Shown here: one piece after another, positions 14,501 through 53,646 of the stretch | Layout of the letters: every line of letters begins with the position of its first letter | Numbering within the stretch: the stretch's first letter is position 1 | NCBI GenBank assembly: GCA_025060505.1 | Contig: JANXBU010000011.1 | Span: forward strand, 1 to 64,000 | DNA length: 64,000 nt | Source of the DNA: Candidatus Calescibacterium sp. | Lineage (GTDB): Bacteria > Calescibacteriota > Calescibacteriia > Calescibacteriales > Calescibacteriaceae | Direction of reading: 5' to 3' | Notes under the pieces: generated by a model | Seen by the model: only the letters and a program-made list of their open reading frames with translations | Told to the model about the DNA's origin: nothing | Databases searched by the model: none | Program-made: the position numbers and the translations under genes

Positions 14501-17500
14501 AATCCAGAATCTACATACTGACATGGACTCAAGGAGCAAGCGATTTCTCCAACCTTATCAAATGTTGGATCACCGGATTTCCTTCTTTCTATCTCATAAA
14601 AATCCTCATGAGATGAATTATCATTGAAAGAAAGTTGTATTTGTGAAGAAGATATAGCGGTTGCGTTGAGAGAAGTTGGAGCAGCAAGAACTCTGACACA
14701 GTCTTGATTCGACGCTGGGGAGTCAGGAGCTCCACCACCTGTTGCCGTTAAAATATAGCAGTACTGTTGTTCAACGCTAACTCCTGTATCATTATGTGAT
14801 GTAACATTCCCCACTGTTGTGTAAAGCGAGCCGTTCCTATATATCTTATAACCCGTATTCTGCGTAGAGTTATCACTCCAAGTTATGTTTACCTGAGCGG
14901 AGTTTGGAGCAAAAGCATTGACAGCAGAAGCCGGTAGAAGAGGAATAGTAACATTTACTTCGTTTGAAAATCCAGAGTATCCCGCAGAGTTTGCAGCAGA
15001 AACTCTGTAGTAATAAGTCTGAGCTTCAAGAACAGAGTAGTCTGAGTATGTTGTGACATTCGTAGGAGTTGAAGCTATGTTTGAATATGTTCCAGCAGCA
15101 CCCAGTTTTCTCTGAATTATAAACCAATCTTCATTATTTGAATTATCTTGCCACTTCAGTTTAACATTATAAGAATCAAATTCATAAATCTGCAAACCAG
15201 AAGGTGCAGCCGGTGGAGCCGCCGGCGGATTATTTGTGTTCTCACATACCTCGGTAGTATATGTAGAGTTCTTTGAACCTTTATATGCTCTGACTCTGTA
15301 ACAGTATTTTGTAGAAGGTGTAAGCCCTGTATCTATGTACTCCTGTACATTTGGACCCACTGTGGCTATTTCTGAATATGTTCCAACTAAAAACAGTCTC
15401 CTTTCAATTCTGAAACCATCTTCAATAGCAGAGTTATCAATCCACGTGAACTTTATAGATGATGCAGATAGAGATACAGCATTCGGATTAGACGGAGCAT
15501 GTGGTGGAGTTAAATCACAATCTTGGTTAGATAAATCAGAGTATCTCAAACCATCTGGTGTATTCGCAACTGCACTAACACGGTAGCAGTACTGTTCTCC
15601 TTCATTCAATCCTTGATCGAGGTAAGATGAGGTGTTCGCAGAAAGTGTTTGATAAACCGACCAACTTCCTGAACCAACCTTTCTCTGGAGTATATAGTTG
15701 TTCTCAACAGATGAGTTATCCGACCAGTTTACCTGAACTTGAGTTGAGCTTGTTGAGAAAGCATCAAGAGCTGTAGGTGTTTTTGGTGGAGCCCAATCGC
15801 AAAGTTCATTTGAAAATTTAGATGCTCCGGCTGTATTTGTTGCACGAACCTTATAACAATGTTTCTGTCCCTCAAACAAACTTGAATCAGCGTAATTTGT
15901 GGTCACCGGCTCAGCTATCTTTGAATATAGTCCAGAACCAACTTTTCTGTGAACCTCAAATCCATATCTTCCAAAAACATCGGTCCAGTTTAAAATGAAA
16001 GTTTCTGCAGAATAAGAGAGTGATGTAAGCTGTGGAGTGCACAACAAACCTCTACCCCACCCTTGTTCATTGTATCTTGAAGATGCCCAAGATGTATCTT
16101 TTGTTGCTCCTGTGCTTCCAATAGCGTAAATATATCCATTCCTTGAAGTAATATAAACTGTTCCATCTGGAGCTATGTTAGGAGATGACCTTATTTCAGC
16201 ACCAGTGTTAAAACTCCAAATTCCAGAACTAGAGCTACTTACAGCATAAAGATAGCTCCCACCAGCAAAATAAACAAGGTTATGTTCAGACAAAGCAGGT
16301 GATGACCAATTTACAGTTCCAGTAGCTGTATATGACCAGAGAGAAACTCCAAATGTTCCGGAATCCTGAATCTTGAAGAGCTTATTACCCGATGTAACAT
16401 ACAAAATGTTTCCATCAACAGCTGGAACAGATTTTATCTCTCCGCCAAGACTTAAAGTCCACTTCAAAGTCCCGTTTGGATTAATAGCAAAGAGATTTCC
16501 TGCTTTGTTGCCAACATATATCGTTCCATCGCAAGAAAGAGCAACTCCACTCTTCACATCACCAGCTGTATAAGACCACTGTAAAACACCAGATGATGAT
16601 ATCTTGTGAATCTTTCCATCACTTCTTGTTGCAACATAAATTGAACCATCTGGAGCAATTGTGGGGGATGCATCAGAGAGCTCGGAAGTAAGCTGCAACT
16701 GCCAAATAACAGAACCGTTTGATCCATTCAATCTCAAAACCTTTCCATCCTTCGTTATAACTACTATGTTTCCAGAGAAATCAATAGATGGCGAGCCATA
16801 AATTGGCCCAGTCTTTCTCCCCCAAACAAGAGAACCATTAGCAGTTGACAAAGCCCATACATTTGGACCACAAGCAACAAACAATCTTCCGTTCGTATCA
16901 TCTATTGCTGGTGCTCCTTTTATAACACATGGACAAGAGTTTGGAAGCGAAGGAATATTTACAGACCACCTTAGACCACCTGACGAATTCAGAGATATCA
17001 GAACTCCGTTATCATTCCCAACATAAACATTTCCGGAAGAATCAACAGAAGCAGGAGCATCTGAGGGAGCACCCAAGTTGTAGCTCCACTTCAAACTACC
17101 TATTCCAGCTGGCTTGAAAAAAATGTTTTTGAAACTTTCCCATATCTTTTCAAGGAATGAAATGTCTTCTTCTTTCACCTCTGGTTCAAAAATTCCTGTT
17201 ATTGACGGTTCGAACTCGTTTATTACAGCAAAAATATCCAAAACAGGTTTTCCTTCAACGATTTTTCCAGATAGAGCGGAACCGTTTATTATAGCATCTC
17301 TTAGATCGGAAGCAGAAGCATTTCTCAGAGAAAGAAGAAGACCGGCTGCTCCGGCTACAAATGGTGAAGAGAAACTCGTTCCACTTGCCAAGCAGTATCC
17401 AATCTCACACGTTGAAAAAATATTTTCACCCGGAGCAAAGATATCCGGATTCTTATTAGAAAAACTGCTTCTTTTTAACCCAGAAGATACCGAACCAACA

Positions 17501-18549
17501 ACTATTATGTTTACAAATTCATCTCTTAAAGAAGCACCAGCTCCAGCCCACTTTGAATCATATCCGCCATTTCCAGCTGACTGAACAAACAAAACATCTC
17601 CGAGATTTCTGAAAACCTGTCTGAAAACAGAATTCACAAAATCAAGAATCTCCTGACTTTCTTCAGGGTTTTCTTCTGGGTTTCTATCCCATTTTATCTC
17701 TCCTGAAAAATTTATAACCCTAACACCGCGCTTTTTGAGCTCAAAAGCACACCACACAATAGAAGCAAGAGAACCATCTGTTCTACAAAGTTCCAATGAA
17801 ACATCAAACATAACACCAGCAACACCTTTTAAGTTCATTCCCTTTGCTCCGATTATCCCAGCAACAAGAGTTCCGTGTCTTGAATTCAGAAAATTGTAGC
17901 TTCCCGCCTCCGTCACACCGCTTACATTTTCTTTCAGGTCATCATGTAGATAGTTGAAACCCCAGTCAATTACACCGATTTTTACAGATTTGCTTCCGCG
18001 AGCAATGTTCCAAGCAGAAGGGAGCCTTACAAGCTCAAAAGCCCAGTTCTTACCCTCTGGATTTTGCTCATTCCAGTTCTCTTCAGACCACTCCGAATCA
18101 TTTGGAACAAAAGCTCCACCAGATAGAATCAAATTCGGTGTTATTCCCAAAACATCAGGATTGTCTGATATAATCTCGGTAACTTTTTCAAGCTCCCCAG
18201 CATCTTTCACTTTCACTCTGAGCTGAACTATAATCAATCCTCTAGTTTCAACTCCACCAAGTATCTCTGGCTCGTATCCGGTTAAACCTACCACATCAAG
18301 AATAACTTTTCTCAAATCATCTTTTGTTCTAACTGCTACCAGGATTTCATCTTGTACTAATCTTATACCTTTCCAGTTTACAACCTTTTCCTTGCTAATA
18401 CCCTGTACAGAAGATGGGATATAGATAGGTTTTTCTGTTTTTTTTCCTAGCTTTGCACAAGAAAAAAACAAAAGTAGAGAAACAGAAAAAACAGATATCT
18501 GAGCGAAAATACGTTCAAAGCGATTTGAGCCTATTGTATTCCCAATCAC
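5509..18549 (-). CDS. Giant modular lipoprotein: subtilase, beta-propellers, 21 FnIII domains, FG-GAP-like tail
   Basis: A 4346-residue protein. Residues 1-31 are a signal peptide with lipobox LFFSC (Cys31). Residues about 60-145 look like an inhibitor/propeptide. Residues about 187-440 are a subtilase with Asp195 (GVIDWG), His225 (RHGTLVAG), Asn327 (SAGNGG) and Ser392 (GTSFSSPFVAG). Then come alternating blocks: PQQ-like propeller about 490-830, six FnIII about 838-1380, propeller about 1385-1745, six FnIII about 1755-2300, propeller about 2305-2655, nine FnIII about 2667-3525, a divergent propeller about 3526-3860, and an FG-GAP/VCBS-like tail about 3890-4346. Propeller blades show repeated 'SSPAI..G.IYVGS.DG.LYA' patterns. 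The start is GTG at 18549, set by a strong GGAGGGAGGAG 11 nt upstream; the nearer ATG hits TGA after four codons. It lies 25 bp after the DUF2341/LamG gene. No sorting domain or C-terminal anchor is seen. Likely a surface adhesin or protease; the ligand is unknown. Confidence 0.9.
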   Translation of the reverse strand: MIGNTIGSNRFERIFAQISVFSVSLLLFFSCAKLGKKTEKPIYIPSSVQGISKEKVVNWKGIRLVQDEILVAVRTKDDLRKVILDVVGLTGYEPEILGGVETRGLIIVQLRVKVKDAGELEKVTEIISDNPDVLGITPNLILSGGAFVPNDSEWSEENWNEQNPEGKNWAFELVRLPSAWNIARGSKSVKIGVIDWGFNYLHDDLKENVSGVTEAGSYNFLNSRHGTLVAGIIGAKGMNLKGVAGVMFDVSLELCRTDGSLASIVWCAFELKKRGVRVINFSGEIKWDRNPEENPEESQEILDFVNSVFRQVFRNLGDVLFVQSAGNGGYDSKWAGAGASLRDEFVNIIVVGSVSSGLKRSSFSNKNPDIFAPGENIFSTCEIGYCLASGTSFSSPFVAGAAGLLLSLRNASASDLRDAIINGSALSGKIVEGKPVLDIFAVINEFEPSITGIFEPEVKEEDISFLEKIWESFKNIFFKPAGIGSLKWSYNLGAPSDAPASVDSSGNVYVGNDNGVLISLNSSGGLRWSVNIPSLPNSCPCVIKGAPAIDDTNGRLFVACGPNVWALSTANGSLVWGRKTGPIYGSPSIDFSGNIVVITKDGKVLRLNGSNGSVIWQLQLTSELSDASPTIAPDGSIYVATRSDGKIHKISSSGVLQWSYTAGDVKSGVALSCDGTIYVGNKAGNLFAINPNGTLKWTLSLGGEIKSVPAVDGNILYVTSGNKLFKIQDSGTFGVSLWSYTATGTVNWSSPALSEHNLVYFAGGSYLYAVSSSSSGIWSFNTGAEIRSSPNIAPDGTVYITSRNGYIYAIGSTGATKDTSWASSRYNEQGWGRGLLCTPQLTSLSYSAETFILNWTDVFGRYGFEVHRKVGSGLYSKIAEPVTTNYADSSLFEGQKHCYKVRATNTAGASKFSNELCDWAPPKTPTALDAFSTSSTQVQVNWSDNSSVENNYILQRKVGSGSWSVYQTLSANTSSYLDQGLNEGEQYCYRVSAVANTPDGLRYSDLSNQDCDLTPPHAPSNPNAVSLSASSIKFTWIDNSAIEDGFRIERRLFLVGTYSEIATVGPNVQEYIDTGLTPSTKYCYRVRAYKGSKNSTYTTEVCENTNNPPAAPPAAPSGLQIYEFDSYNVKLKWQDNSNNEDWFIIQRKLGAAGTYSNIASTPTNVTTYSDYSVLEAQTYYYRVSAANSAGYSGFSNEVNVTIPLLPASAVNAFAPNSAQVNITWSDNSTQNTGYKIYRNGSLYTTVGNVTSHNDTGVSVEQQYCYILTATGGGAPDSPASNQDCVRVLAAPTSLNATAISSSQIQLSFNDNSSHEDFYEIERRKSGDPTFDKVGEIACSLSPCQYVDSGLLSSTTYEYRVRARKGTKSYSSYSNVANATTLGPSASACVSTGGGVFSTGVTYGNLIIYGSKDGIVRAINRNTCAVVWTYNTGKQVWASPATSSTGRVYIGSRSGYLYALNAATGAEIWKCQVGGGVIASVGVRESSGTILIYVGSRDRKFYAIQDNGTSCSISWVYDTTADCAGDSGQIDSSTLVDPQGNVYFGSSNGYLYSLNQSGVIRWKTLIGELVKKPVFSSPAMSCQGKVYVVAREKLYEINYSTGAIERQFTIGTAGASLISSPTVTTDTVFVGGSDGLYAIWTTASALALRWKYTTPAPVTSAPAISGNGKVAFGSASGVFYVVQLATGTLDWSGTVATGAILSSPVITSGSIWFGSEDSGIYRVNIGVVPPESGKFAYTKFRHDFGNSGWFAPGLCSPWGLTSPYAHPGSVTLNWVTVNAFADFTEIERSPNGSSWSIIGSASPGSATHYTDTTAGEGNVYWYRVRAKNNLGYSGYSEQISVILPPFAPSLLNAQLSATSPHSIVDLVWTDNSAVEDGFRVQRSLNGITFSTVATLVANTLNFSNVGLSEVETYWYRVLAFKGALESAYSNTVSIITAPRSATGASAVAIDHETVSLIWYDNSSKENGFEVWRKIGASGTYQAVATLSSNTTSITDTALMPNTTYCYKVRAFANTWNGQIFSIFTDETCTTTPPAPPAVPAAPSNLTAYVISSTETVLTWQDNSGTETGFKVERSLWGGPYQVSATVGANIITYTDSATTDRRYCYRVKAFNIHGDSAPSNVTCVTLIAMPSNLTTGALSTSSIKLTWQDNSTQNTNYEIWQSIDGVNYTLLVNLSDVTTYDHTGLSEGSSIYYRIRAHANAITYSSFLTPVVGYSKPNAPTALSVVLTTSTAIKLSWNDNSSKEAGYILQRCTGASCTPNQVVANLPANSNTYTDTGLSANTTYCYRVSAYVGNAYSDFSNTVCGTTVGPGNISYQIQTGGAIYSSPAINNGIAYIGSDDKKLYAIETTTGTVLWTYTTGGAIRSSPAVGCFGEIYFGSDDGYLHSLTGNAVLRWNVQLSQRKAPIVSSPAFHPKGTTVYVTVTNHRLYAVNITDGSIAWVSSALPRPLRTSPFVSPNGATVYVVGVSRVYAFDANTGTQKWQLNINCSIETSPAVTPDGAIYVKGDDTLYRIQDNGSSGSVVWSIAIGKGESTPAVGTDGNIYVGGAHGGNVSLVKISPSGTVLSSYQTLGMINSHPSFATYAGNSTIFVGDTSGNLYAVNAGGMNLIWSLSLNGDIRVGPNIWMPSGILLVATTKGTIYGVSAQGEIPEGACPRFQSDIYSFGATRACPKLQGSPDPITAWAETSTRIQIKWTDTFSSENGFEIWKQQVGLDTNFVLLDTLAQNVTQYAHQSLPEATTVFYRVRAFAGSDFSNYTTTVSATTFPREPTGLSAQTLSANSITLTWYDNSTKEQGFVVERRPSSSSVWTTIHQVFTPNVTQYLNSGLSENTEFCYRVMSFIHSGNLRSLPSNENCARTRLNTPTGLVANAIGPNQIDLQWQDNSTQETSYEIWRKGQSDPDFVLITSVPGLSGTGVKTYSDTTVLSNTTYYYRVRATNTVPNWSEFSNVVSATTPTNPIPNPPSSLTTYTYSSTQINLTWQDNATNEVGFKVMRCVGSGCNPLSGTLAATVLSSNPTTTGLVFYENHSLSEYTVYCYCVSAYNSFGDSACSNTSCSTTFPHAPTGLTGTVAPDKITLYFIDNSLIEDGFKVERRLYHGGVYSQIAVLGPKTGTGSVTWEDTSIVSGTEYCYRVRSYKGSLNSLYSNSWCTDINLFAPTNLTAALYPGGVTLNWVNNAMGEDGTQIWRCSGLGCGTFSMVGTAPANVTYFVDTGLTEGYYCYKVRAYKGVSDFSGWSNIACVELGLVAPSGLQIISSFSTEVSSAFQISWNDNSSAETAYYVQSSTDGTNFTQIATFTANTTLATIQGLEEGKWYWFRVQAANSTTQSSYSNVVSAISSPYRPSFLKVMGGPATDVVIFSWQANSTTETGFLLKVRKDPGTPIDVTSPAGSESYFASLTEENTWCFSISSYIIEPVSLKVRGSGFTSEVCQYILGTPNPLLVERLDTIRLSWGDNSDGEDGYQIERTENAGVTWVQMVTLSSVGFFVDTSTTANKDYCYRVRAYKTIGANTYYSSYSEVRCVSTKTDGSNIASVVLGQGGNITHISSSSSVTLVYVATSTGYIYAVDTVKKQLVAMYNAGSSISGLCLRDYIGGVTVVATTSGGDVLKLRFDLKLMRKYAAGGQIVGCALTDDLYVGVKPNKVVRLKILELSPVSSITLTNNIESGPIVVLSDINKVYYVVEAGGDERRVCRRNLDLTSEQCTPNTTRISTLLSADLDGVFAGTSTGVIAFVPHSSSTIFTKQLTSPSESITRVITIYNRGAQKLLAIPAQDGSFYLVEVTRVPPYDSSLDVKIIWLKELGSIPSAPLMKTDRIVVGTGSGNLYSYRITDGVLIYNQSLGSAQILASPVVGSDISSGESGGNQTLSFIVNGGGRTDDCWPRSGGNSRGDNTCDTTPSVGGSFRIVQKWNPLCLGTNADYVAPTPVSFAGNIYYGFSATNNVDWIFRASPSGSVLSSVSYTHSMSWITSNLSVGDVLGSNPGNELVFGIIHRSTNEPGYIHVRDSLNLGNLLFNYPLPSTIKYVRGIALYDIVAGDSSRPELVFTVYSPNQKRAMLHVLDPDNSYPLVCSRVFAEHIWSIPLIHPSGIVIGGGGNDSSGNLYVLDSSCNIVKTISFAGHLKEGFLADVNGDNNVDWVGGLTQPNGANYVVLVSNIFGAHVTSTFHLGTLSDIPGRNTIRGIVPAFIGGVTYAVFVETAQLRADNYWKSFLNVVRFSSLSIIRVGSRFEVRGWEYAFPVVGDFDGARGDREIIIGLMDGADESPFYVFDVGSATERADLRERSALRQGEGIGSFGLSVTDIDSNQRLDLMVSGDKGCFYVFEIKYSGRANRNGIADVPHFRRDNTLNAVW
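7970..10550 (-). repeat. FnIII array 3 of the giant protein (nine domains)
   Basis: Nine consecutive domains of about 90-100 residues with the pattern W.DNS..E.GF...R at the front and YRV.A near the end. Six carry a Cys in the YC[YF] position and a second Cys in the last strand; three carry neither. Two also contain a CxGxxC turn after the first Arg. Confidence 0.85.
11650..13290 (-). repeat. FnIII array 2 of the giant protein (six domains)
   Basis: Six consecutive FnIII domains between propeller blocks 2 and 3. Three have the paired Cys of strands F and G and three have neither. The last also has the CxGxxC turn (RCTGASC). Confidence 0.85.
14410..16035 (-). repeat. FnIII array 1 of the giant protein (six domains)
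   Basis: Six consecutive FnIII domains between propeller blocks 1 and 2. Four have the F/G-strand Cys pair. Two have neither, one of which contains a separate local pair (ACSLSPC). Confidence 0.85.
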
Positions 18550-18574: not shown

Positions 18575-21500
18575 CTACTCTGTTGAGTCCTCTATTGCTC
18601 CATAAGAAACAGCTGGTTGAGTTCCATCCTTTCTAACTCTGACCCATCTTACCTCAATATCATCTATATCGTTAGTGTTGGGAGAATTAAGACCTTGAAA
18701 GTCACCCAAAAATAAATAAGGTGCTCCGGGCTCCTGTTCAGGAGTTTTATCTCCACCCCCGAGCAATCCACCTCGCCACTGCCCACTAACTGTTTGAGAA
18801 GCCAGAGATGTATACAACGCATTATTTATATAGTATATAAACTGTGATGAGTTGAACCTAAAACCCCCAATATACCAAATGAATTCAGTTATGGTATGAA
18901 GAGTACCCGCAAAAACATCATAAGAAGCAGAGTCTCCCTCGGCTCCCCAGATTGTAAGGTGTTCAGTGTTACCAACTGGACTATCTCCGGCCTCCGTCAT
19001 CCAATAAGCTAAACAGTCAGCTTGAGTATTGCTTCCCGATGTTCTATCATCATCTGCTATGTTTATACCAGCGTAAAGGACACTTGAATTCCACCATCTT
19101 GTAAGTATTTCAAATGCTCTTCCAACATTTGAATGAGCTACTGCATAGCGTGAAACAAGATTCCCAGTTCTTACAACAACTCCGTTACTGACAGTATAAT
19201 TAGAAGAATTAGCGTTCCATTTTGTTGTATCTACCGTATTTCCAGGGAACTCATCAAAGAACTCAAAGGTTCTATCACCAGAACTTATAGATGCTTTAGA
19301 TGTGTTTCCGAAATAAGCATAAAGAGTTGACGTTCCAGCTGTTATATAAGGTATTTTTACCCAAACCCGAGACCTTCCTTCATAAAGCATTCTCACCTCA
19401 TACGGTGCAAGTTCTCTGTTGAATATACGCAAATCATCAATATAACCTTCCCAATCTTCAGCGGCAGAAAAACCAGCACAGCTTGTCCCTGATATACTAT
19501 CTGTTTCCTGCCCAATAACAGTGCAAATGACATTTAAAGGTCCCGTTGTGAGATCACCTCTCGCTGCTCTCAAAACTCCATCAACATAGAGCCAACCACC
19601 ATTTCCGTTAGTAGCTCCCCTTACAAAAACTATATGGTGCCAGCTTCCATCTTCGATATTCACACCGGCTGGAAAATTAAAAGCAGTGTTTTTCACATGA
19701 ACCTGAATTGTATCATTTCCAGCCGTGGTGAGCTTATATATCAGAAGTTCATCAGGACTCCCTGATGTTGCAGCGGAAATAATAGAAGCAGGTCCTCCGT
19801 TATCTCCTTTTGTCCACCTGACCCATACTGAAATAGAAAAAGAAGTTCTTCCATCGAGAACAGTTCCGGGGATAGTGACAAAATCAGTAGTTCCATCAGG
19901 AACGAGGTTCACACCTCCCCCATATATTCCACCCCCCCAACTTGCACCAGAGAGAGTTCCTGTATTCCCATTTCCGGAAGAGTCAGAAGCCGAAGTTCCA
20001 GATGTCTCATTGAACTCCCACCAAGAAAGTAATGTAGGATCTCCTCCACACGGACCACGTGCTTCAAAATAATACGGGAAACTTAAATTCCAAAGATCAA
20101 CTTCAAAGTACGGGGAATCAGAAAATCTGAGGTCCCCACAATCATTTCTTATTGTATCAAGAGTTATGGGCAATGTAAGCGGTAGTTCAAAAACAACTTC
20201 AAAATCTCTGAGCACAAAAGTTGAATTCAAAGTTATTGGAATTCTTCTCAAAAATAAACCAGTGTAAGATGCAGAAGTCTCTACACCAACAGAAACAGAA
20301 ACATCCGCGTACTTTGCTACCGCAATGTCATCGAAGTAAGCATCTCTTGAGCCTCTTATAGCTACCCTATCAAAAACAACATGGTTCGCATCAGTAGCAT
20401 TCAGTGTTTGACTACCATTAGCATGAGTAAATTCTCCAGTGATGTTTGATCCTCTTTTGTAAAAGACAACCATCTGCCATTCGCCAGTATCAGTTGTACC
20501 AGGAGCTGTTCCAGAAGCAATATTTGCTCCAAAATTTCCATTATCAAACCTCTGTATCCATATCCCATCATCAGTTGTGCGGACTATAAAAGAATATCCA
20601 TCATATTTAACACTATGCAGATATATAAGATCATATTGCGTATCTGCTGTATTTACTCTTTTGAATCTCCACATAGCAATAAAATTTGAAACAGGATATG
20701 GGAATAATCTTTCTCCACCGTTATAGTAATCTCCTCCCCCAGTTAGAGAACAACCGGAAGCAGTGTTAGCACAACCTTTCATTATAACCATGTTCCCGCC
20801 ATCGTTGTGCGCCTCAAGAATTCCGGAACCAATATGTGTCCAGCCCGGAGGTGGTCTTTGACCATCTGTGTAAGATTCGGCATTATCATAAAACACGAAA
20901 ACTTTGTTCGGGTCTGAAACAGCATCTGCATTTTCATTTCCATAATACATATAAATTGAGTTCGCTCCGGACGGAAGGTACGGTATTTTGACCCAGAAAA
21001 CTGTTGCTGAGGTGTTGCAGGTACTCTGCCCAAGCCTGTTTATACCTATCCAATATGGTATAAAAATTTCATCTGTTTGATCCGTGAATCTTACATCGGA
21101 GCAATCCGCTTTCATCTTTCCACCAGAAATTAATGCAGCAGTATTCAGAGTAACACGCACCACTACATCTGTCTCTGGTGTTGAGCTGTTCGTGACCGTT
21201 ACTACTCTTCTGTAAGCCCATCCACAACCAGCTGATTTGCCCCTGATACGAGGAGAAGAGCGAGCAGATAGACAAACAACAGGTGAAGCAAAAAATTCTC
21301 TTGAATATCCAGAATCTCCCAAATTGTTTATCGCACGCGCTCGGTAAAACCATACACCCTCACTTTCTACTTTATCTTCAAATTCAAATTTTCCGGATTT
21401 CTTTACATCATCATCAACAGAAATCTCTTTTAGTTTTTCCCAATTCGTATCCTCTCCTCTTCTTTCAACTATGACCTTCTGAGCGTATGGTGGAACAGAT

Positions 21501-22024
21501 ACTTCAAGTCGAAAAGTCAAATCTTTGTATGAGCTTATATAAATTGATGGATCAGACAAAGTTCTCAATTCAAGAATACCGGAAGAAACCCCATCCGCAG
21601 ATTCAACCTGAAAAAGAACAAGGTTATCCGGTGAAACAGGAATCTGAACTTTACCTGAATCAAACAAATCTGATTCTTGATACCTTGCAACAGTCTCGCC
21701 ACTTTGATCTTTTTCTTCCCCAACTTTCAGCTGATAAGAAAGATATTGCCAATCTGTTTTTGATCCTTCTTCATATTTCATTTTTATTTTTACTGGAACA
21801 GCTGGCTCCCAGATCAAAACAGCAAACCCATCTTTGTACTCTCCCCTTAAAGTAATCTGATTAGTATCTCCTTTTTTATCTGACACATTTCCAACAGATT
21901 GACCCCTCTGATCACCTGAATCCAAAGCGCAACCAAAGTAAAGAAACAAAAAGAGAGTCGCAAATACAATCTTTATCCTTCCTCCCTTTACCTTGTTTTG
22001 CAGTGATTCGATTTTTTGATTCAT
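18575..22024 (-). CDS. Lipoprotein with FnIII, DUF2341 and nested LamG (concanavalin-like) domains
   Basis: An 1149-residue exported protein. The signal sequence ends at FGC (Cys32), a near-lipobox. Residues about 150-250 contain an FnIII-like domain (WFYRARAINNLGDSGYS). A complete DUF2341 domain follows (YRRVVTVTNSS ... VWVKIPYLPSGANSIYMYYGN), then a jelly-roll-like segment after FYDNAE. A second DUF2341 (FLRRIPITLNS ... LRFSDSP) is interrupted by a full LamG domain (LLSWWEFNETSGT ... YIDDLRIFNRELAPYEVRMLYEG) and resumes at VWVKIPYITAGTSTLYAYFGN. A third jelly-roll-like segment (EFFDEFPG...) closes the protein. DUF2341 and LamG are common in surface carbohydrate-binding proteins. Translation is set by GGGAGGACC 8 nt before the ATG. 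It is the first gene of a two-gene unit with the giant protein. Confidence 0.85.
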   Translation of the reverse strand: MNQKIESLQNKVKGGRIKIVFATLFLFLYFGCALDSGDQRGQSVGNVSDKKGDTNQITLRGEYKDGFAVLIWEPAVPVKIKMKYEEGSKTDWQYLSYQLKVGEEKDQSGETVARYQESDLFDSGKVQIPVSPDNLVLFQVESADGVSSGILELRTLSDPSIYISSYKDLTFRLEVSVPPYAQKVIVERRGEDTNWEKLKEISVDDDVKKSGKFEFEDKVESEGVWFYRARAINNLGDSGYSREFFASPVVCLSARSSPRIRGKSAGCGWAYRRVVTVTNSSTPETDVVVRVTLNTAALISGGKMKADCSDVRFTDQTDEIFIPYWIGINRLGQSTCNTSATVFWVKIPYLPSGANSIYMYYGNENADAVSDPNKVFVFYDNAESYTDGQRPPPGWTHIGSGILEAHNDGGNMVIMKGCANTASGCSLTGGGDYYNGGERLFPYPVSNFIAMWRFKRVNTADTQYDLIYLHSVKYDGYSFIVRTTDDGIWIQRFDNGNFGANIASGTAPGTTDTGEWQMVVFYKRGSNITGEFTHANGSQTLNATDANHVVFDRVAIRGSRDAYFDDIAVAKYADVSVSVGVETSASYTGLFLRRIPITLNSTFVLRDFEVVFELPLTLPITLDTIRNDCGDLRFSDSPYFEVDLWNLSFPYYFEARGPCGGDPTLLSWWEFNETSGTSASDSSGNGNTGTLSGASWGGGIYGGGVNLVPDGTTDFVTIPGTVLDGRTSFSISVWVRWTKGDNGGPASIISAATSGSPDELLIYKLTTAGNDTIQVHVKNTAFNFPAGVNIEDGSWHHIVFVRGATNGNGGWLYVDGVLRAARGDLTTGPLNVICTVIGQETDSISGTSCAGFSAAEDWEGYIDDLRIFNRELAPYEVRMLYEGRSRVWVKIPYITAGTSTLYAYFGNTSKASISSGDRTFEFFDEFPGNTVDTTKWNANSSNYTVSNGVVVRTGNLVSRYAVAHSNVGRAFEILTRWWNSSVLYAGINIADDDRTSGSNTQADCLAYWMTEAGDSPVGNTEHLTIWGAEGDSASYDVFAGTLHTITEFIWYIGGFRFNSSQFIYYINNALYTSLASQTVSGQWRGGLLGGGDKTPEQEPGAPYLFLGDFQGLNSPNTNDIDDIEVRWVRVRKDGTQPAVSYGAIEDSTE

Positions 22025-29479: not shown

Positions 29480-29595
29480 ACAGACCCTCACCTCCTTTTT
29501 TATCAAACAGTGTATATTTTAAAAATCTCTTGTTGAAGTATCAAGCTTCAAGAATATCTATTGTTAAAGCCACTATTCAAACATAAAACTTTGTC

Positions 29596-29723
29596 TTACA
29601 TTTGAATCTTACATTTGATGTTTTCTTTTCGGATTATAAATACTCTCCGTAACATTTCCGTAGTACCTTTTGAATAAAATGTTCAGCTTAACTTATTGTA
29701 GCGTAATTTTGAATTACATTTGA
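29596..29723. promoter_or_regulatory. Three copies of TTACATTTGA in the divergent bacterioferritin promoter region
   Basis: The decamer TTACATTTGA occurs at 29596-29605, 29609-29618 (13-bp spacing) and 29714-29723, all in the same orientation, between the PKD lipoprotein gene and bfr. Repeated sites in a short divergent intergenic region suggest an operator for a regulator, perhaps iron- or stress-linked given bfr. It is not a classic Fur box. Confidence 0.45.
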
Positions 29724-29763
29724 TTATGTTCTTGCAACAGTTGAATCAGGAGGCAAGAAATAA

Positions 29764-30231
29764 ATGAATGGAAACCCAAGAATAATAGAAGCTCTGAATG
29801 ACCTACTTTCAGCAGAGCTCACGTCAATAGCTCAATATGTTGTTCAAGCTGAAATGTTTCAAAGCTGGGGATACAAAAAGCTATACAAAACGTATATGGA
29901 AATAGCAAAATCAAGTATGCAACATGCAGAAAAACACATTGAAAGAATAATATTCCTTGAAGGAAAAGTAACGGGCATAAAATTCAAAGAAATGGAAATC
30001 GGTGAAAACCCAGAGGAAATACTCAGAAATTCAATAGAGGACGAGGAATCTGTTGCCAAATTATATAACAATGCAATAAAGATTTGTGAAGAACTTGGAG
30101 ATAACGGAACAAAAACAATGCTTGAATCCATTCTCAAAGAAGAAGAGCAACACATCAATGCAATCAAGACTCTAATGCATCAGATAAAAGAGATGGGACT
30201 ACAAACATTCCTTTCAACCCAAACAGAATAA
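29764..30231 (+). CDS. bfr: Bacterioferritin subunit 1 (ferroxidase site altered)
   Basis: A 155-residue bacterioferritin that aligns without gaps to the E. coli type in its first two helices. Iron ligands Glu18, His54, the Glu in DEES, and Glu/His of KEEEQH are present. Met52, the inter-subunit haem ligand, is present (SSMQHAE). The bridging Glu at position 51 is Ser. Such a subunit could bind haem but would have a weakened di-iron site, as in two-subunit bacterioferritins where one chain is catalytic and the other is not (known in several proteobacteria). Translation: AGGAGG 10 nt before ATG. A second bfr copy follows beyond tRNA-Glu. Confidence 0.92.
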   Translation: MNGNPRIIEALNDLLSAELTSIAQYVVQAEMFQSWGYKKLYKTYMEIAKSSMQHAEKHIERIIFLEGKVTGIKFKEMEIGENPEEILRNSIEDEESVAKLYNNAIKICEELGDNGTKTMLESILKEEEQHINAIKTLMHQIKEMGLQTFLSTQTE

Positions 30232-30344
30232 TTGTCAGATCTAACAGCACGCTCAGCAATATTAGACTATTACCATCTGCACCAATTCTAAAAAATTTTG
30301 TTTAAAGCTAGATACTCTTGCTTTGAACTTAAATTGGAAAGAAA

Positions 30345-30422
30345 GCCCCCGTCGTCTAGCCAGGACTAGGACGCCGGGCTCTCAATCCGGAAACAGGGGT
30401 TCAAATCCCCTCGGGGGCGCCA
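30345..30422 (+). tRNA. trnE: tRNA-Glu (CTC), CCA encoded
   Basis: The acceptor stem GCCCCCG pairs with CGGGGGC and is followed by G and an encoded CCA (30420-30422). The anticodon arm is CCGGG-CTCTCAA-TCCGG with one G-T pair, giving anticodon CTC at positions 34-36 (reads GAG). The T arm CAGGGGTTCAAATCCCCTC is canonical. The sequence resembles other bacterial tRNA-Glu along its length (CGTCGTCTAGCC...). Only six bases separate its CCA from the ATG of the second bacterioferritin. Confidence 0.97.
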
Positions 30423-30428
30423 TAATAT

Positions 30429-30899
30429 ATGAAAGGAAATCCAAAAATAATAGAAATGCTAAACGACCTACTTTCAGATGAACTCACAGCTATAGTTCAG
30501 TACATTGTTCAAGCTGAACTCTTCGATAACTGGGGATATAAAAAACTTCACAAAATATTTATGAACAGAGCAAAAACAGAAATGCAACACGCCGAAAAAC
30601 ACATTGAAAGAATAATATTCCTTGAAGGAAAAGTAACGGGCATAAAATTCAAAGAAATGGAAATCGGTGAAAACCCAGAGGAAATACTGAAAATATCAAA
30701 AGATGGTGAAGAATACGCCGTAAAAGCATACAACAATGCAATAAAGATTTGTGAAGAACTCGGAGATAACGGAACAAAAACAATGCTTGAATCTATACTT
30801 AAAGATGAAGAATCACATCTTGATCTCGTTGAATCACAACTCGATCAGATAAAACAGATGGGACTCCAAAACTTTCTCTCAACTCAAACGGAAGAGTGA
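30429..30899 (+). CDS. bfr: Bacterioferritin subunit 2 (complete ferroxidase site)
   Basis: A 156-residue paralogue of the preceding bacterioferritin. Here the motif is TEMQHAE, so Glu51, Met52 and His54 are all present, together with Glu18, the helix C Glu (GEEY) and DEESH. It should be the catalytic iron-oxidising chain and could co-assemble with subunit 1. There is no Shine-Dalgarno: the ATG follows the CCA of tRNA-Glu by six bases (TAATAT). A leaderless or nearly leaderless mRNA would be left by 3' processing of the tRNA. A 95-bp stretch is identical to subunit 1. Confidence 0.92.
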   Translation: MKGNPKIIEMLNDLLSDELTAIVQYIVQAELFDNWGYKKLHKIFMNRAKTEMQHAEKHIERIIFLEGKVTGIKFKEMEIGENPEEILKISKDGEEYAVKAYNNAIKICEELGDNGTKTMLESILKDEESHLDLVESQLDQIKQMGLQNFLSTQTEE

Positions 30900-32031
30900 A
30901 TCAATATGTTAATCAACTTAATCCCAGAATAACAAGGATTTAAAATAAAACCTCTTGTCTTACCTCTCAGCAAATCAATTAATGAAAAAGAATTAAAATT
31001 CATCAAGATATAACCTAATTAGAATTGAAATAAAGACCTAAATCATAAAATCGCAACAGAAACTCTTCCGCAACCAGCTGGAAACATCCTTCTATCTCCT
31101 TCAACATTTTGTGAATATATACTGCAACTGGACTGAGTGTTTATACACTATCTTTTTGGCTCTCACTTAGATTCTTCAAGAATACTTTACCTAAATACCT
31201 ATTCCCTATACCTATTCCCTCTCTTAGCTCGCCCATATTACTGATATTATCTTACTTTCTGATAGATTTAGAATCAAATCCAATTCTTTACATCAGAAAC
31301 AAATGCTTCTCTCATTACTTCTTCTAATATCTCCTGGGAACCAATTCCGTGCTATATCTATGCACATTACTGCTCTCCCGACCTCCTTTCTTCTTTCGTA
31401 TATCTTTGCTTAGCAAGTAATATCAGCCTGCTTAGTTCCGAAATATCGATGTTCTGCTTCTCGCTTTTTCAAAACGTTCATTGAATCTTGATAAGTTTCA
31501 GTCATAACATCTGATACTTTATAGCTCCAGAAATTTATGCTGGCAAATAGATAAATCATCCATTCAAGAAAATGTTTCATATCCACTTACATATCTACTT
31601 CTTTAAGACCTACTATTTCGTTTCAAAAATAGATATCCTACCAAACGTCATCTATACTCTATCTCTCGTTTGAAGTTCATCTTTGAACAAGTAGATTGCA
31701 ACCTATATTAAAGATTATATCTTGAAATTAACATAGATAAAAAATCATCCTCCCCATTGGGGAGTTCCTTGTCTGAAACTCAGCTCAGTGTTTAGTATTC
31801 ACGTATAAAGCCGGCGATAAGCTTTACAAATTGCATTCCAAGATGAATAGGCTTCATAAAAATCTGTGCGCGCTCTATAGATTCAGAGCGAAATTCTCAA
31901 ATATCATTACCGAAAAATCGGTCATTATTCTCCTTGAATTTGATAAACTCGCAAAAAAAGATCGAATTTGGAAAGATTCAGGTATGTTCGTTATTGTCTC
32001 ACCGAATTTTCTTCCATGCTAAATTACAATA
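30900..32031. other. Gene-poor stretch (1.1 kb)
   Basis: No intact gene. The plus strand is pyrimidine-rich from about 31130 to 31700, the reverse of functional plus-strand genes here, consistent with a decayed minus-strand gene (31015-31580). Short hairpins follow near 31750-31764 (CTCCCC ATT GGGGAG), about 31868-31887 (CGCTCT/AGAGCG) and about 31909-31922 (ACCGA/TCGGT), the latter two in the possible leader of the next gene. A 63-codon plus-strand ORF (31831-32022) does not look coding. Confidence 0.5.
31015..31580 (-). pseudogene. Decayed minus-strand gene of unknown family
   Basis: Consecutive protein-like pieces in shifting minus-strand frames: 31580-31410 (starts MKHFLEWMIYLFASINFW), then AKIYERRKEVGRAVMCIDIA, HGIGSQEILEEVMREAF, MGELREGIGIGNRYLG...SESQKDSV, a TAA, and TLSPVAVYIHKMLKEIEG... 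ending at a TAG at 31015-31017. The pieces look like a transposase or Rpn-type nuclease remnant, but I cannot name the family. Several stops and frame changes show it is dead. Confidence 0.4.
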
Positions 32032-40127: not shown

Positions 40128-41513
40128 TTAGGATGTAAGAATAGAGGAAATGATTCTGAATATAACTTTAAGCTGAGCTATTGACTTGATCTTTCTTAAA
40201 TTCTTAAGAAGAAATTTTGGCCTTACATAAAAAGCAAAATAAGCAAAAGCCTGAATAAATCTCAGAATAAGAGAACCAACTTTTCTTTCCACAAATTTTG
40301 AAGAACGATACAGATTGAAAGTAGAAATTATTTTATCCCACATTTCAATCGGATATTTTCCCTTTATATTTCTCCACTCATCCGTTCCGGGAAAAGGATT
40401 GAATATAAAGTATCCAGCCTTGTTTATGGGAGCAGAAAGCGAGAAAGAAATTGTTCTGACCATGTCTCTTAAGTTTTCAGTTGGATAACCAATAATGAAG
40501 TTCCCCTGAACATGGAATTTATACTTCTCAATTAGTTTCAGTTTATCTATTACTTTCTGGATGCTTAGTTTTTTCTTCATAAAATCAAGAGTCTTTTGAT
40601 TATAAGACTCAATACCAAGAGCAAAAGCATAAAATCCAGCTTTTTTCATAAGCTCAAGTATCTGTTCATCAACGAGATCAACTCTTATTCCAGACGGCAG
40701 AGCAAACCTCACCGGAAAATTTGCTTCAATAAGAGAATTGAGAAGTCCAATTAACCATTTTCTTGGAGCAATTGTAATGTTATCGTCTATTATATGTATC
40801 TCCTCCATCCTATACTTGGAAACCAGAAGTTCTATCTCAGATATTATATATTTATGTTCTCTTGTTCTGATAATTTTACCTGATATAGCTGGAACACCGC
40901 AGAATGAGCAAGGATATGGACATCCACGCGTTGTTACTATTTGAGCTATTTTTGTTTTTTCAGAAAATATGCCTATTGGCAATGGTGGATATGTATCTGG
41001 CCTTACAAGATCCCAAGCTGGCAAAGGGTATCTGTTTACATCAACAAACTCCCTATGATTTACTACTATCTCACCGTTTTTCCTCCAAACCAGATTCGGT
41101 ATATCGTTATGTTTCTGTTTTGTTATTTTTATCAAAGTTTCCTCACCATCTCCCACGCAAGCAAAATCTACACTTTTGAGAAAATACAATGTATGCTCAG
41201 GTTCAAAAGTTGGATGCGGACCTCCCACAACTATTATGGTATCTGGTGAAACCTTTTTTATCTCATCCGAATATTGCCTCACAGATCTAATTAGCGGACT
41301 CAGAACATAAAAACCAACAACATCAAATTTCTCTCTCTTTACTATTGTTGCTAATTTCTCTGGACTAATCCTATCTTTCGCAGCATCAATTATCTGAACA
41401 TCATAGCCATTCATTATAATAGATGAAGCAAGATAACCAAGCGATTGCGGCTGAAGAAATCCAAACATTTTTCTTTCAAGATCGGCAGGATTTACAAGAA
41501 GAAATTTCATCAT
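40128..41513 (-). CDS. B12-binding-type radical SAM enzyme (1 of 7)
   Basis: About 461 residues from the ATG pair at 41513/41510; the longer frame upstream lacks a sensible start. Residues 1-150 form the cobalamin-binding-like Rossmann domain (KFLLVNPAD, VVGFYVLSPL, VVGGPHPTFEPE, CVGDGEETL). The radical SAM cluster motif is GCPYPCSFC (Cys198, 202, 205). HIIDDNIT and FALGIESYNQ follow, and the C-terminus has the FYVRPKFL motif common in this group. The classical DxHxxG cobalamin motif is absent, as in many BchE-like members. Its closest relative in the window is the enzyme at 57997. The substrate is unknown; by family a methyl transfer, cyclisation or oxidation on a lipid, sugar or cofactor. 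Confidence 0.85.
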   Translation of the reverse strand: MMKFLLVNPADLERKMFGFLQPQSLGYLASSIIMNGYDVQIIDAAKDRISPEKLATIVKREKFDVVGFYVLSPLIRSVRQYSDEIKKVSPDTIIVVGGPHPTFEPEHTLYFLKSVDFACVGDGEETLIKITKQKHNDIPNLVWRKNGEIVVNHREFVDVNRYPLPAWDLVRPDTYPPLPIGIFSEKTKIAQIVTTRGCPYPCSFCGVPAISGKIIRTREHKYIISEIELLVSKYRMEEIHIIDDNITIAPRKWLIGLLNSLIEANFPVRFALPSGIRVDLVDEQILELMKKAGFYAFALGIESYNQKTLDFMKKKLSIQKVIDKLKLIEKYKFHVQGNFIIGYPTENLRDMVRTISFSLSAPINKAGYFIFNPFPGTDEWRNIKGKYPIEMWDKIISTFNLYRSSKFVERKVGSLILRFIQAFAYFAFYVRPKFLLKNLRKIKSIAQLKVIFRIISSILTS

Positions 41514-41639
41514 CCATTCATTAGATTTTAGTTTCAGAAAAAACAAATTAGCAAATAATAAACACACCGAACAATGAAGCAATATTAAAATGGTAAGTTT
41601 TGATAATACAACAGAGTTTAGAGATTTAGAAGTTAAAAT

Positions 41640-42599
41640 ATGAAAAAAACAAAGCTTGTAGCTGGAATAGTTCTTGTTGTTGTGGCTCTAGAAATATTCT
41701 TGAGATTTTTCTTTACTCTGGGTTATAATCTCCTTTCCTTCAAAATAATAGCTCCTCTTTCAGTTAACATAAATTCACTTAGAGAAAAAGTTCTTTCAGA
41801 TGAGAGATTCTTTTCAACAAAGCATCCAGAACTTGGATTTGTCATAAAACCGAACATCAATATATCTTACCAAGCAAAAGAAATAAGCAATGATATACCT
41901 TCTGTATCTTACAGAACCATAGATGTTTTTGGAGACGGAAAATTTGGAGCTCGGGATGACGGAATAGATAAAAAACTCTGGGCAATCGCAATTGGTGACT
42001 CCTACGCATTCTGCTATTCTATTGAAATGAGCAGATGTTGGGTAGAGATAATAGAAAATGAAACAGGAAAAGATGTTCTGAACTTAGGAACTCCCGGAAC
42101 AGGCACATACCAGCAGTACAAAATCCTTGAATATTTTTTGAGAAGATATAATCAGAAACCAGAGTTTGTATTCCTTATGTTCAATTTCACAGATTACCTC
42201 GATGACCAGTGCTATCTACACAGAAAAAACTGCAACATTTTCTCACCAAACACATCTTTTCTTTTTGAAGATACATTTTTGGGCAACTTCTATATTATAG
42301 GCGTATTTAAAACTGTTATTGATTCAATTCAAACCAGAAAAACATACTCCTACCTTATGGAACCAGAAACAACTTATTTGAAGAACATCAAAGATGTATG
42401 CTCATGCGAAGTTATACTGATACCGGCTTACAACTATGTTAAGAACCTGCGAATATGTAGCTCATATCATTGTGTTAGACTAAACTATACAGAAGATATG
42501 TTTATGAAAGAACATCATAATGAAAAGGCACAAGATTATATTGCGAAAAAAGTTATTGAATATCTCAAAACCAACTTTAATCAGAACTTTCAGGAATGA
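41640..42599 (+). CDS. SGNH-hydrolase-like membrane-anchored protein A
   Basis: 319 residues with an N-terminal transmembrane anchor (about 7-26). Block I of the SGNH fold is IAIGDSYAF (Ser121), with a GTPGTGTYQQ block (about 147-156) and MFNFTD (about 189) as further blocks. The usual catalytic DxxH near the C-terminus reads KEHHNEKA, so the Asp position is Lys. A region rich in cysteine (CSCEV, CSSYHC) precedes it. By family it could be an acyl esterase or acetyltransferase-like enzyme of envelope polysaccharides (AlgJ/AlgX type). It is a paralogue of 44943-45950 (shared RDDGIDK...GDS). The stop overlaps the next ATG. Confidence 0.7.
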   Translation: MKKTKLVAGIVLVVVALEIFLRFFFTLGYNLLSFKIIAPLSVNINSLREKVLSDERFFSTKHPELGFVIKPNINISYQAKEISNDIPSVSYRTIDVFGDGKFGARDDGIDKKLWAIAIGDSYAFCYSIEMSRCWVEIIENETGKDVLNLGTPGTGTYQQYKILEYFLRRYNQKPEFVFLMFNFTDYLDDQCYLHRKNCNIFSPNTSFLFEDTFLGNFYIIGVFKTVIDSIQTRKTYSYLMEPETTYLKNIKDVCSCEVILIPAYNYVKNLRICSSYHCVRLNYTEDMFMKEHHNEKAQDYIAKKVIEYLKTNFNQNFQE

Positions 42600-43342
42600 A
42601 ACTAAGCATAGTTATACCGTTTAAAGATGAAAAAGATCTACTACCTGCTTTAATAAACCATATTTTGCAGAGCGTACCTATTCAGAAAGAAATCATAGCT
42701 GTGTATGATGAAAAAAGCTCAGATGTTGCTCGCTATATTGAAAAAGCTGTAAAGAACTTCTCAGATATCAACGATGAAATCAAATTTCTGAAGAACAAAT
42801 ATGGAAGTGGTGTTCCCAACGCAATAAGAACTGCTCTGGAGCACTGCACAGGAGATCCCATTGTTTTTATGACCGCAGATTTCTCAGATGATCCAAAAAC
42901 TATTAACCAAATGATAGAAAAAATAAAAGAAGGGTCAGACATAGTTTGTGGGTCAAGATTCTCAAAAGGAGGTGGATATCTAAATGGCAACCTATTGAAA
43001 AAGCTAGCTTCTCAAATGACAGGGGTTTCCCTTCATTACATCACTGGAATACCAACAAAAGACATCACCAACACCTTCAAAATGTTCAGAAAGAAAGTTC
43101 TTGAAGATGTAGGAGTCAAAGGTGATGGATTTGAGTGGGCAATGAGAGCTACATGCAAATCGTTTTACAAAGGTTACAGAATATCAGAAGTTCCACACGT
43201 ATGGAGAGAAATGAGAAAAGAAAAGAAAACAAATTTCAAAACAAAATGGATTATAAACTACCTGAAAATATATGTCTGGACTATTATGAACAGATTTAGA
43301 ACTTTCAGAGAATCATACATAGCACATATTTTTGAAGTTTAG
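42596..43342 (+). CDS. Family 2 glycosyltransferase (polyprenyl-phosphate sugar synthase-like)
   Basis: A 248-residue GT-A enzyme. SIVIPFKDEKDLLP starts the nucleotide-binding half; FMTADFSDDP is the DxD-type metal site in the same context as dolichyl-phosphate mannose synthases; VCGSRFSKGGGY and DITNTFKMFRKKVL follow. Such enzymes load a sugar onto polyprenyl phosphate, which would supply the GT-C/PMT-like membrane enzymes found nearby. No C-terminal transmembrane helices are present. Its ATG overlaps the stop of the SGNH-like gene (ATGA), so the pair is likely co-translated. Confidence 0.88.
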   Translation: MKLSIVIPFKDEKDLLPALINHILQSVPIQKEIIAVYDEKSSDVARYIEKAVKNFSDINDEIKFLKNKYGSGVPNAIRTALEHCTGDPIVFMTADFSDDPKTINQMIEKIKEGSDIVCGSRFSKGGGYLNGNLLKKLASQMTGVSLHYITGIPTKDITNTFKMFRKKVLEDVGVKGDGFEWAMRATCKSFYKGYRISEVPHVWREMRKEKKTNFKTKWIINYLKIYVWTIMNRFRTFRESYIAHIFEV

Positions 43343-43438
43343 AATTATTTAGAATTATCAGAGCACCTATATACCAAAGCAATCAAAAAATCGCTAAATA
43401 GATTAAACGAAACAAAGATAGAAAAAATCACTAAAAAA

Positions 43439-44965
43439 TTATAAAAAGAAAATTACAAAATGTTCTCCAAATTTAAAAACCTCTTTCGGTTCAAGATATT
43501 TCTGCATATCCTCAAAAGAAACTCCGTAAGCCGAACATGATAGGTCAAATCCAATTGCTCTGTATCTTGATCTTATGAATTTGATATTTCTCTGAACATT
43601 TCCGAGAACCTGATGACAGACAAAATAATCTATATTCAACTTACCTTCTGAAAGAACATAGGGAAAGCCAACCGAAAGAGGAGCAGAAATGAATAACATT
43701 TTCTCATCATCTAAATTCTGAATGAGAAAATTTGTTACCTCCTTTTGAATCTGCAAAGGAGAACCATAACCTATTTTCAGAAAAAACTCCGATCTTTCCC
43801 CCTTCATCTCAGATCTAGGATCTCTTGAAAAATCAGCGGAAGATATAAGAACTGATAGAACAATAAAAAACACAATCAAAACAAAACCTACAAGCTTCTT
43901 GGCTCTGCCAAGGACATACAATATCGGGAAAAAACAAAATGGAGTAAACATAGAAAAATATTTTCTCCATCTTGAGAATCTATCAAAAACAATCTCTCTA
44001 TCATTTACAACAAAAAATAGGAAAATCAGAGAAGCAACAAAAATTATAAGACCTGTAATATTTATAATCAATATCACTTCTTTCACTTTATCTCTCACCT
44101 TACCTGATGCCAGAAGAATCAATGATATAACAAAAGAAATCAGATTTATATTCAGAAATATAACATGCGGGAATGTGAATAGATAGATGAAGACCTTCAA
44201 TTTCTCTACAAAAGTATCTCTTTTTTCTCCGAGCTGACCATAATACAAATTTGATAAATCCGGATGCATAAGCAATATTAGAATCGGAACAAGCACAAGA
44301 AATACAAGAGCGAAAAAGTTTAGCAAACCGAACATTTTATAATTCATACCTTCAAAAAATCTCCTACCAATAAAATACATAATTAGCAAAAAGAGAATAA
44401 ACCAAGAGGTATTGAGGTGCAAAGCCAAGATCAGAAAAAGAACTTTTATCCTTACATTGCTTGAAAGAAGCGCTAAATAAAACATACAAAATGAAAGTAT
44501 GATCGGGTTCATCTCATAGATATATGAAATAAAGCCTATATGCATCTGAAATGCAATGGTCCCAAGAACAGATATCCAGAAATCAAATATCCTTGAGAGC
44601 AAAACATAAACCACAAAAGAACAAACTATATATGTGATCAAATTGAAAAGTCTCAGATAAAATGGGTCAAGTTTTAAGTTCCATATAGTCTTCAGAACAA
44701 AAGATGATAAATATCCTACATTGTATTGACTTGAAATTAGAGAAACATCCCCAAAACCGGGTATTCGCATCACAGCTGGTGGGAAATCATCGTAATAAAT
44801 CTCAAAAGACTTTTCGTTACCTGAACCGAAATTTTTGACATATATAAATTCACCAGTTGTTATACCAAGACTTTTTATTCCTTTGTAAGCATGTATTGAG
44901 ACGAAAAAAAGCGTTAGAGAAATTATCAGGAAACCTATTAGCTTAATTCTGCTTTCTCTCTTCAT
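43439..44965 (-). CDS. Polytopic membrane protein, possible GT-C glycosyltransferase
   Basis: 508 residues with about ten hydrophobic helices and a C-terminal soluble tail of about 110 residues. An N-terminal signal-anchor and an extracytoplasmic first loop containing acidic residues (EIYYDDFPPAV) fit the general plan of GT-C enzymes, but I see no firm signature. The start overlaps the 3' end of the upstream SGNH-like gene by 23 bp, so the two are coupled. The substrate would be a lipid-linked sugar if the assignment is right. Confidence 0.5.
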   Translation of the reverse strand: MKRESRIKLIGFLIISLTLFFVSIHAYKGIKSLGITTGEFIYVKNFGSGNEKSFEIYYDDFPPAVMRIPGFGDVSLISSQYNVGYLSSFVLKTIWNLKLDPFYLRLFNLITYIVCSFVVYVLLSRIFDFWISVLGTIAFQMHIGFISYIYEMNPIILSFCMFYLALLSSNVRIKVLFLILALHLNTSWFILFLLIMYFIGRRFFEGMNYKMFGLLNFFALVFLVLVPILILLMHPDLSNLYYGQLGEKRDTFVEKLKVFIYLFTFPHVIFLNINLISFVISLILLASGKVRDKVKEVILIINITGLIIFVASLIFLFFVVNDREIVFDRFSRWRKYFSMFTPFCFFPILYVLGRAKKLVGFVLIVFFIVLSVLISSADFSRDPRSEMKGERSEFFLKIGYGSPLQIQKEVTNFLIQNLDDEKMLFISAPLSVGFPYVLSEGKLNIDYFVCHQVLGNVQRNIKFIRSRYRAIGFDLSCSAYGVSFEDMQKYLEPKEVFKFGEHFVIFFL

Positions 44966-45950: not shown

Positions 45951-45957
45951 ATATTTA

Positions 45958-46120: not shown

Positions 46121-46125
46121 ACGAT

Positions 46126-49185: not shown

Positions 49186-49192
49186 TGATTCA

Positions 49193-53639: not shown

Positions 53640-53646
53640 TAATCTG

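Follow-up and report, generated by a model that had tools for sequence, protein, structure and literature searches.

The short junction between a tRNA-Glu gene and the bacterioferritin-like gene bfr2 in Candidatus Calescibacterium sp. is not a product of chance and is one of many such junctions in its family, because 25 of the 46 tRNAs in this genome share the layout, compared with 2 of 110 in control genomes. The junction lies in the window that we analyzed, a stretch of 64,000 nucleotides at positions 1 to 64,000 of contig JANXBU010000011.1. The best explanation for these junctions is probably a bacterial form of tRNA punctuation, in which a joint tRNA-mRNA transcript would be cut at the 3' end of the tRNA to leave an mRNA with a leader of 8 to 9 nt. 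For bfr2, the best-fitting model is a near-leaderless mRNA that would arise by tRNA 3' maturation. A promoter just 5' of the (mostly single) tRNA gene would drive a transcript of the tRNA and the protein gene, and a cut at the tRNA 3' end, probably beside the discriminator base or C74, would free the tRNA. The remaining mRNA, with a 5' leader of approximately 8 to 9 nt and without a Shine-Dalgarno (SD) sequence, would then be translated as a near-leaderless message. The sequences themselves show the close neighbors, their tight spacing, the lack of SD sequences, the kept tRNA/gene pairs, and a -10-like box 5' of the tRNAs; joint transcription, the cut, and initiation of the leaderless type are inferred.

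The counts come from three of the five draft genomes of the family, all incomplete (82 to 86%): this genome (G000), G002, and G003, which represent three genera; G001 and G004 were left out of the tRNA-ORF counts. The tRNAs taken were 46 of 46 Rfam matches here, 40 of 44 in G002, and 40 of at least 45 in G003. As controls, we used three unrelated bacteria picked for their few contigs (G014, 43 of 43 tRNAs; G006, 37 of 37; G027, 30 of 46). Acceptor-stem pairing defined where each mature tRNA ends, and ORFs and starts were called mechanically. When a same-strand ORF (80 aa or longer) had to start no more than 16 nt from the discriminator base, the qualifying tRNAs numbered 25/46 here, 21/40 in G002, and 22/40 in G003 (68/126), compared with 0/43 in G014, 0/37 in G006, and 2/30 in G027 (2/110). 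A second rule, by which the next feature had to be a same-strand ORF starting no more than 12 nt from the tRNA end, gave 24/46, 20/40, and 20/40 (64/126) against 0/43, 0/37, and 2/30 (2/110; Fisher P of about 1e-19). Looser limits raised the counts to 69/126 against 7/110 in controls (up to 20 nt) and to 74/126 against 12/110 (up to 40 nt). Thus, tRNAs directly 5' of ORFs at many loci, as in mitochondrial-type punctuation, were found in this family for 68 of 126 tRNAs, and the layout was absent from about half of the tRNAs in the three genomes. The 2/110 in the three control genomes led us to reject the layout as a general bacterial habit.

At the bfr2 junction itself, the original prediction that only the six bases TAATAT lie between the encoded CCA and the ATG was borne out by the sequence, ARAGORN, and Rfam, as was its claim, by the sequence, that no room is left outside the tRNA for a promoter or SD sequence of bfr2 (Table 1). 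The tRNA-Glu gene matched Rfam RF00005 at 30345-30419 with 58.4 bits (gathering score, 29). The junction reads ...GGGGGCG CCA TAATAT ATG, with the ATG at 30429, and the 9 nt from the discriminator base to the ATG, CCA included, equal the median over all 68 junctions. A start earlier than this ATG is ruled out by the in-frame TAA at 30423, and residue 1 of the protein aligned with residue 1 in all six homologues aligned. The product contains a ferritin-like domain (Pfam Ferritin PF00210; E value, 1.3e-32) and scored 124.8 bits against NCBIfam TIGR00754, just under the cut-off of 125.55. The ferroxidase ligands E18, E51, H54, E94, E127, and H130 and the haem ligand M52, at what we take to be the bacterioferritin ligand positions, are complete in bfr2.

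Table 1. Features at and around the bfr2 junction (positions in the window)
Feature	Position	Strand	Basis
AGGAGG, SD sequence of bfr1; same-locus contrast to bfr2	29748..29753	+	sequence
bfr1, paralogue 5' of tRNA-Glu, ordinary ribosome-binding site	29764..30231	+	ORF + Pfam
TAAATT, TAnnnT (-10-like) box, begins 15 nt 5' of tRNA-Glu	30330..30335	+	sequence; genome-wide enriched position
tRNA-Glu (anticodon CTC), encoded CCA	30345..30422	+	ARAGORN
Spacer TAATAT, six bases	30423..30428	+	sequence
bfr2, bacterioferritin-like, 156 aa, without SD sequence	30429..30899	+	ORF + Pfam

Residue 51 of bfr1, a ferroxidase position, is Ser rather than Glu, and the bfr1 and bfr2 products therefore may build a mixed shell. 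The tandem copies share one mid-gene 45-nt window of 100% DNA identity, compared with 60 to 98% in other 45-nt windows, and this single window suggests recent gene conversion between them.

Across the 68 junctions, the distance from the discriminator base to the start codon had a median of 9 nt (quartiles, 9 and 11.25); the median was 10 where the tRNA gene encodes CCA (32 tRNAs) and 9 where it does not (36 tRNAs). The spacing is not absolute, with distances of 2 to 16 nt allowed by the definition of the set. As a null comparison, the distance from a random point in a window ORF to the next in-frame start had a median of 47 nt, and only 16% of these distances fell in the range of 5 to 16 nt. 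Start codons at the junctions were ATG (33), TTG (23), and GTG (12). A spacing of approximately 9 nt could represent the minimum leader length that ribosomes tolerate or the space required with the tRNA still attached.

An SD core, defined as AGGA, GGAG, or GAGG at -18 to -4, was found at 0 of the 68 junction starts (2.3 expected from shuffles), and an AGGA core occurred within 2 of the 68 spacers, nearer the start than this region. A normal anti-SD sequence is present in this genome, whose 16S rRNA 3' end contains GGATCACCTCCTTT. Among the remaining ORFs of 150 aa or more, an SD core was found in only 16/103, 9/52, and 12/59 cases in the three family genomes (16 to 20%), and the lineage therefore appears SD-poor in general. 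The control ORFs had an SD core in 26/42, 17/48, and 7/38 cases, the last being G027. Because G027 is equally SD-poor and yet nearly without the layout, loss of SD sequences is not enough to produce the layout.

These data bear on a reading that we consider unlikely, in which the junctions belong to ordinary compact operons whose genes are co-transcribed and packed, excision has no part in making the mRNA, and ribosomes use the unprocessed transcript or any product of it. The same-strand order and the promoter-like box before the tRNAs (see below) would fit any operon, and starts without an SD sequence need no special account in genomes where SD use is 16 to 20%. Moreover, an operon joining tRNAs to a protein gene is known, thrU-tyrU-glyT-thrT-tufB, with four tRNA genes 5' of tufB behind one promoter region (PMC6134099). 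The junctions described here share with it the order of promoter region, tRNA, and protein gene; however, the tufB operon is only one locus, and a regulatory region lies where tufB begins, whereas the layout here is genome-wide, with a spacing of approximately 9 nt and no SD sequence. Other observations argue against compact operons as the full account. Same-strand gaps of 5 to 14 nt between protein genes occurred in just 6 of 114 cases (same loci plus the window, with mechanical starts from the longest ORFs), the range in which the tRNA-to-ORF gaps cluster, and compaction alone therefore fails to explain the tRNA-ORF spacing. The layout is also nearly missing from the three controls despite the SD-poor G027, and spacer length is better kept than spacer sequence, as described below. 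Finally, use of the tRNA needs excision, which would remove the upstream sequence anyway.

Conservation of the tRNA/gene pairs provides a further line of evidence. Pfam domains were found in 19 of the 25 close downstream proteins of this genome. The genes at its junctions encode MreB, GAPDH, a proteasome-type protein that is presumably HslV-like, an RF-1/PCRF release factor, a DnaX-like clamp loader, ribose-phosphate pyrophosphokinase (Prs), thioredoxin, a PfkB kinase, and a Band-7 protein, along with proteins with a BpsA C-terminal domain, YfiO, an M50 peptidase, ferritin, and others. We limited the pair search to the proteins next behind tRNAs, which numbered 39 here (25 of them close, at no more than 16 nt) and 32 and 31 in the other two genomes. 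Another genus has a homologue behind a tRNA for 23 of the 25 close proteins, and for 20 of the 25 the homologue was equally close; kept close pairs include those of MreB, the HslV-like protein, the release factor, Prs, thioredoxin, and bacterioferritin. Homologues behind the same tRNA and not close were those of GAPDH (330 nt in G003) and of the genes behind Arg-CCG (40 nt in G002) and Leu-TAG (31 nt in G002), and two close proteins, one of them the clamp loader, had no match behind a tRNA elsewhere. Over the three genera we obtained 59 best pairs, 58 of which lie behind the same tRNA type and 46 of which have both starts within 16 nt (21 tRNA types), in a list where two tRNA-Met types carry one label and one pair is counted twice.

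Among the 46 close cross-genus pairs, 34 gave alignments that begin within the first five residues. The spacing was equal or differed by 1 nt in 26 pairs and differed by at least 4 nt in 12, and mean spacer identity was 0.37 over the 15 pairs of equal length. Judging from these alignments, spacer length appears better kept than spacer sequence, since the spacing is often equal while spacer identity is only 0.37 and start codons vary. That the junctions reflect chance or wrongly chosen start codons has next to no probability. Start choice was mechanical, and in 19 of 68 junctions no stop codon interrupts the reading frame across the tRNA, as this account would have it; the Fisher P value against the controls, the pairs kept in three genera, the 34 alignments from the first residues, and a bfr2 start that fits six homologues all speak against it.

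Boxes of the form TAnnnT are concentrated upstream of the tRNAs. At -17 to -14 they preceded 26 of 46 tRNAs in this genome, compared with 6 to 12 of 46 in nine background windows, and 53 of 126 over the three genera, compared with 14 to 28 of 126. This concentration at 14 to 17 nt upstream suggests a transcription start a few nucleotides 5' of the tRNA and would be only an indirect pointer to co-transcription of tRNA and ORF. The TAAATT box of the bfr2 tRNA is a weak match to TATAAT (4/6) and has no clear -35 element by eye, and a general promoter scan of 29500-31300 listed no sites on the + strand.

A promoter inside each tRNA gene or spacer, giving an independent leaderless mRNA, is quite improbable. 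An apparent, weak TAnnnT excess at approximately -15 to -12 before other starts may hint at leaderless promoters in these genomes, and CATAATAT, in the region of the bfr2 spacer, resembles a -10 element. However, for a start 9 nt past the tRNA, the -10 hexamer would fall in the acceptor stem and the beginning of the spacer, the 7 nt 5' of the discriminator base average 80% G+C over 66 junctions, and spacers of equal length have little sequence in common.

Very improbable is the idea that the uncut tRNA-mRNA is translated, with the tRNA sitting where the SD helix would be and aiding the ribosome. The approximately 9 nt from discriminator base to start resemble the 8 to 9 nt from SD center to start given in PMC4633059. 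The centroid fold of the bfr2 junction likewise contains acceptor, anticodon, and T stems and leaves the ORF start largely unpaired; against this, the stability of the fold does not exceed that of shuffled sequences (z score, -0.51), and the minimum-energy fold places the start region in a weak hairpin. We know of no bacterial precedent for an attached tRNA that aids the ribosome, many tRNA types would have to serve, and cutting would destroy the element.

RNase P RNA (class A) was found in all five family genomes. An RNase Z match above the TIGR02651 cut-off was found in none of these genomes (82 to 86% complete), compared with 9 of 14 control genomes. Since TIGR02651 exceeded its cut-off in just 9 of these 14 well-known controls, the absence of RNase Z is weakly supported. 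The best match in each family genome was a metallo-beta-lactamase-like frame of 256 to 275 aa with a weak score (36 to 51 bits). For two of these proteins, RNase Z models were the best matches (55 and 45 bits; cut-off, 293), and neither protein reached any of the cut-offs listed.

C74 was kept in 67 of 72 tRNA genes without a full encoded CCA in G000, G002, and G003, and positions 75 and 76 vary. RNase P recognizes the tRNA 3' end, and the kept C74 may reflect such recognition or, alternatively, a cut after C74. Propionibacterium acnes has leaderless and short-leader mRNAs, whose start codons coincide with a mapped 5' end or follow it by no more than 10 nt; the leaderless examples include ferritin, no obvious tRNase Z is reported, and some tRNA 3' cuts fall between the two C residues of CCA (PMC3848588). 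The kept C74 would fit a cut like that one, and the weakness of RNase Z has a parallel there; however, the short leaders of P. acnes arise from transcription starts, whereas here we propose that they arise from tRNA excision.

We considered tmRNA and RNase P RNA as further RNAs that might cap protein genes in this way and set this idea aside. On one contig of this genome (C49, 99915-100506; locus L254), an RNase P RNA, a tRNA-Asp, and an HslV-like gene stand in a row on one strand, with 58 nt between the RNase P RNA match and the tRNA-Asp. Possible same-strand ORFs begin 7 to 28 nt behind the tmRNA in four of the five family genomes (L257 to L261), with a poorly conserved start. Behind RNase P RNA, none of the five family genomes had a close ORF start, the nearest lying at 60 nt.

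In animal mitochondria, tRNAs stand directly before ORFs, and their excision makes mRNA 5' ends almost without a leader. The junctions described here resemble this punctuation in having tRNAs directly 5' of ORFs at many loci and in the near-leaderless ends that excision would produce. They differ from mitochondrial punctuation in that the genome is bacterial and measures about 2 Mb, a promoter-like box stands 5' of the tRNAs where mitochondria make genome-long transcripts, the leader would be approximately 9 nt long, only about half of the tRNAs are involved, and no RNase Z match lies above the cut-off. In plants, dicistronic tRNA-mRNA transcripts share the joining of tRNA and mRNA (PMC8166872), but these are nuclear and have a proposed role in movement between tissues. 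We found no description of genome-wide tRNA-ORF abutment in bacteria among the titles and abstract beginnings listed from open-licence literature, which is weak evidence of absence.

We put forward as no more than tentative the broader idea that tRNA excision is the general maker of mRNA 5' ends in this lineage, with a nuclease other than a recognizable RNase Z that keeps C74, SD-independent initiation on leaders of approximately 8 to 9 nt, and tRNA maturation setting core-gene output. Its core genes would be those for MreB, the HslV-like protease, Prs, the release factor, thioredoxin, the Band-7 protein, the PfkB kinase, and bacterioferritin. If true, the 5' ends of many core bacterial mRNAs would be made by tRNA maturation, in a layout otherwise associated with mitochondria, and tRNA supply would be linked to protein output. 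It would also allow large-scale tests of SD-independent, leaderless-type initiation from very short leaders and would suggest that an unknown nuclease acts on the tRNA 3' end. For annotators, it is a caution that a start codon directly behind a tRNA can be genuine in this lineage.

Conservation of the bfr2 junction in relatives had been set beforehand as a test. In a search of 41 genomes (this one and 40 others), 17 gave some ferritin-like match, and a close bfr2 homologue was found only in G002 (other genus, same family), at 73% identity, with the next best at 50 to 56% in other families. In G002, tRNA-Glu(CTC) is followed by 9 nt (TAATAAAAA) and then the ATG of its sole matching bfr gene, so the junction passed in the one other genome with a close bfr, and we discarded the possibility that it is unique to this genome. 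Over the first 150 residues, the G002 protein has an identity of 0.75 to bfr2 and 0.59 to bfr1. Because it is nearer to bfr2, bfr1 is probably an added or faster-evolving copy. Genus g2 (G001, G003, and G004) had no bfr matches; in G001 and G003, tRNA-Glu(CTC) is followed at a longer distance by another gene, which has an SD-like AAAGGAG. No bfr relatives were found in the viral contigs searched.

Iron storage had been proposed to be specially tied to tRNA-Glu through haem synthesis. This part of the original prediction was not supported, as the 25 tRNAs with the layout have many identities and precede unrelated genes alike, and the gene behind the second tRNA-Glu (TTC) encodes a polyamine-synthase (BpsA_C) domain. 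An iron- or haem-specific coupling was thus rejected as the main story. We saw no sign of bfr2 as a special iron or haem switch, and the link to haem is unsupported.

We also scanned 290 genomes for the pattern of a T-arm, 12 nt, CCA, 4 to 8 nt, and ATG, and 219 had at least one match. The highest counts were in this genome (10), G010, G026, and G173 (9 each), and G081 (8), and the other four family genomes had only 1 to 5 matches each. Flanks were checked in the four other genomes with 8 or 9 matches, for 30 of their 35 matches; these were mostly tRNA clusters or had no ORF start there, with one clear ORF start at the pattern spacing, behind a tRNA-Thr of G081. Because the pattern sees only CCA-bearing tRNAs and ATG, the scan is coarse, and other lineages may have the layout. 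Elsewhere in the window, the minus strand carries an ORF of 4346 aa (5509-18549) with many repeated domain-like segments by eye, which adjoins a large ORF of 1149 aa (18575-22024), and several similar ORFs on both strands at 40128-59376 are radical-SAM-like by eye (CxxxCxxC).
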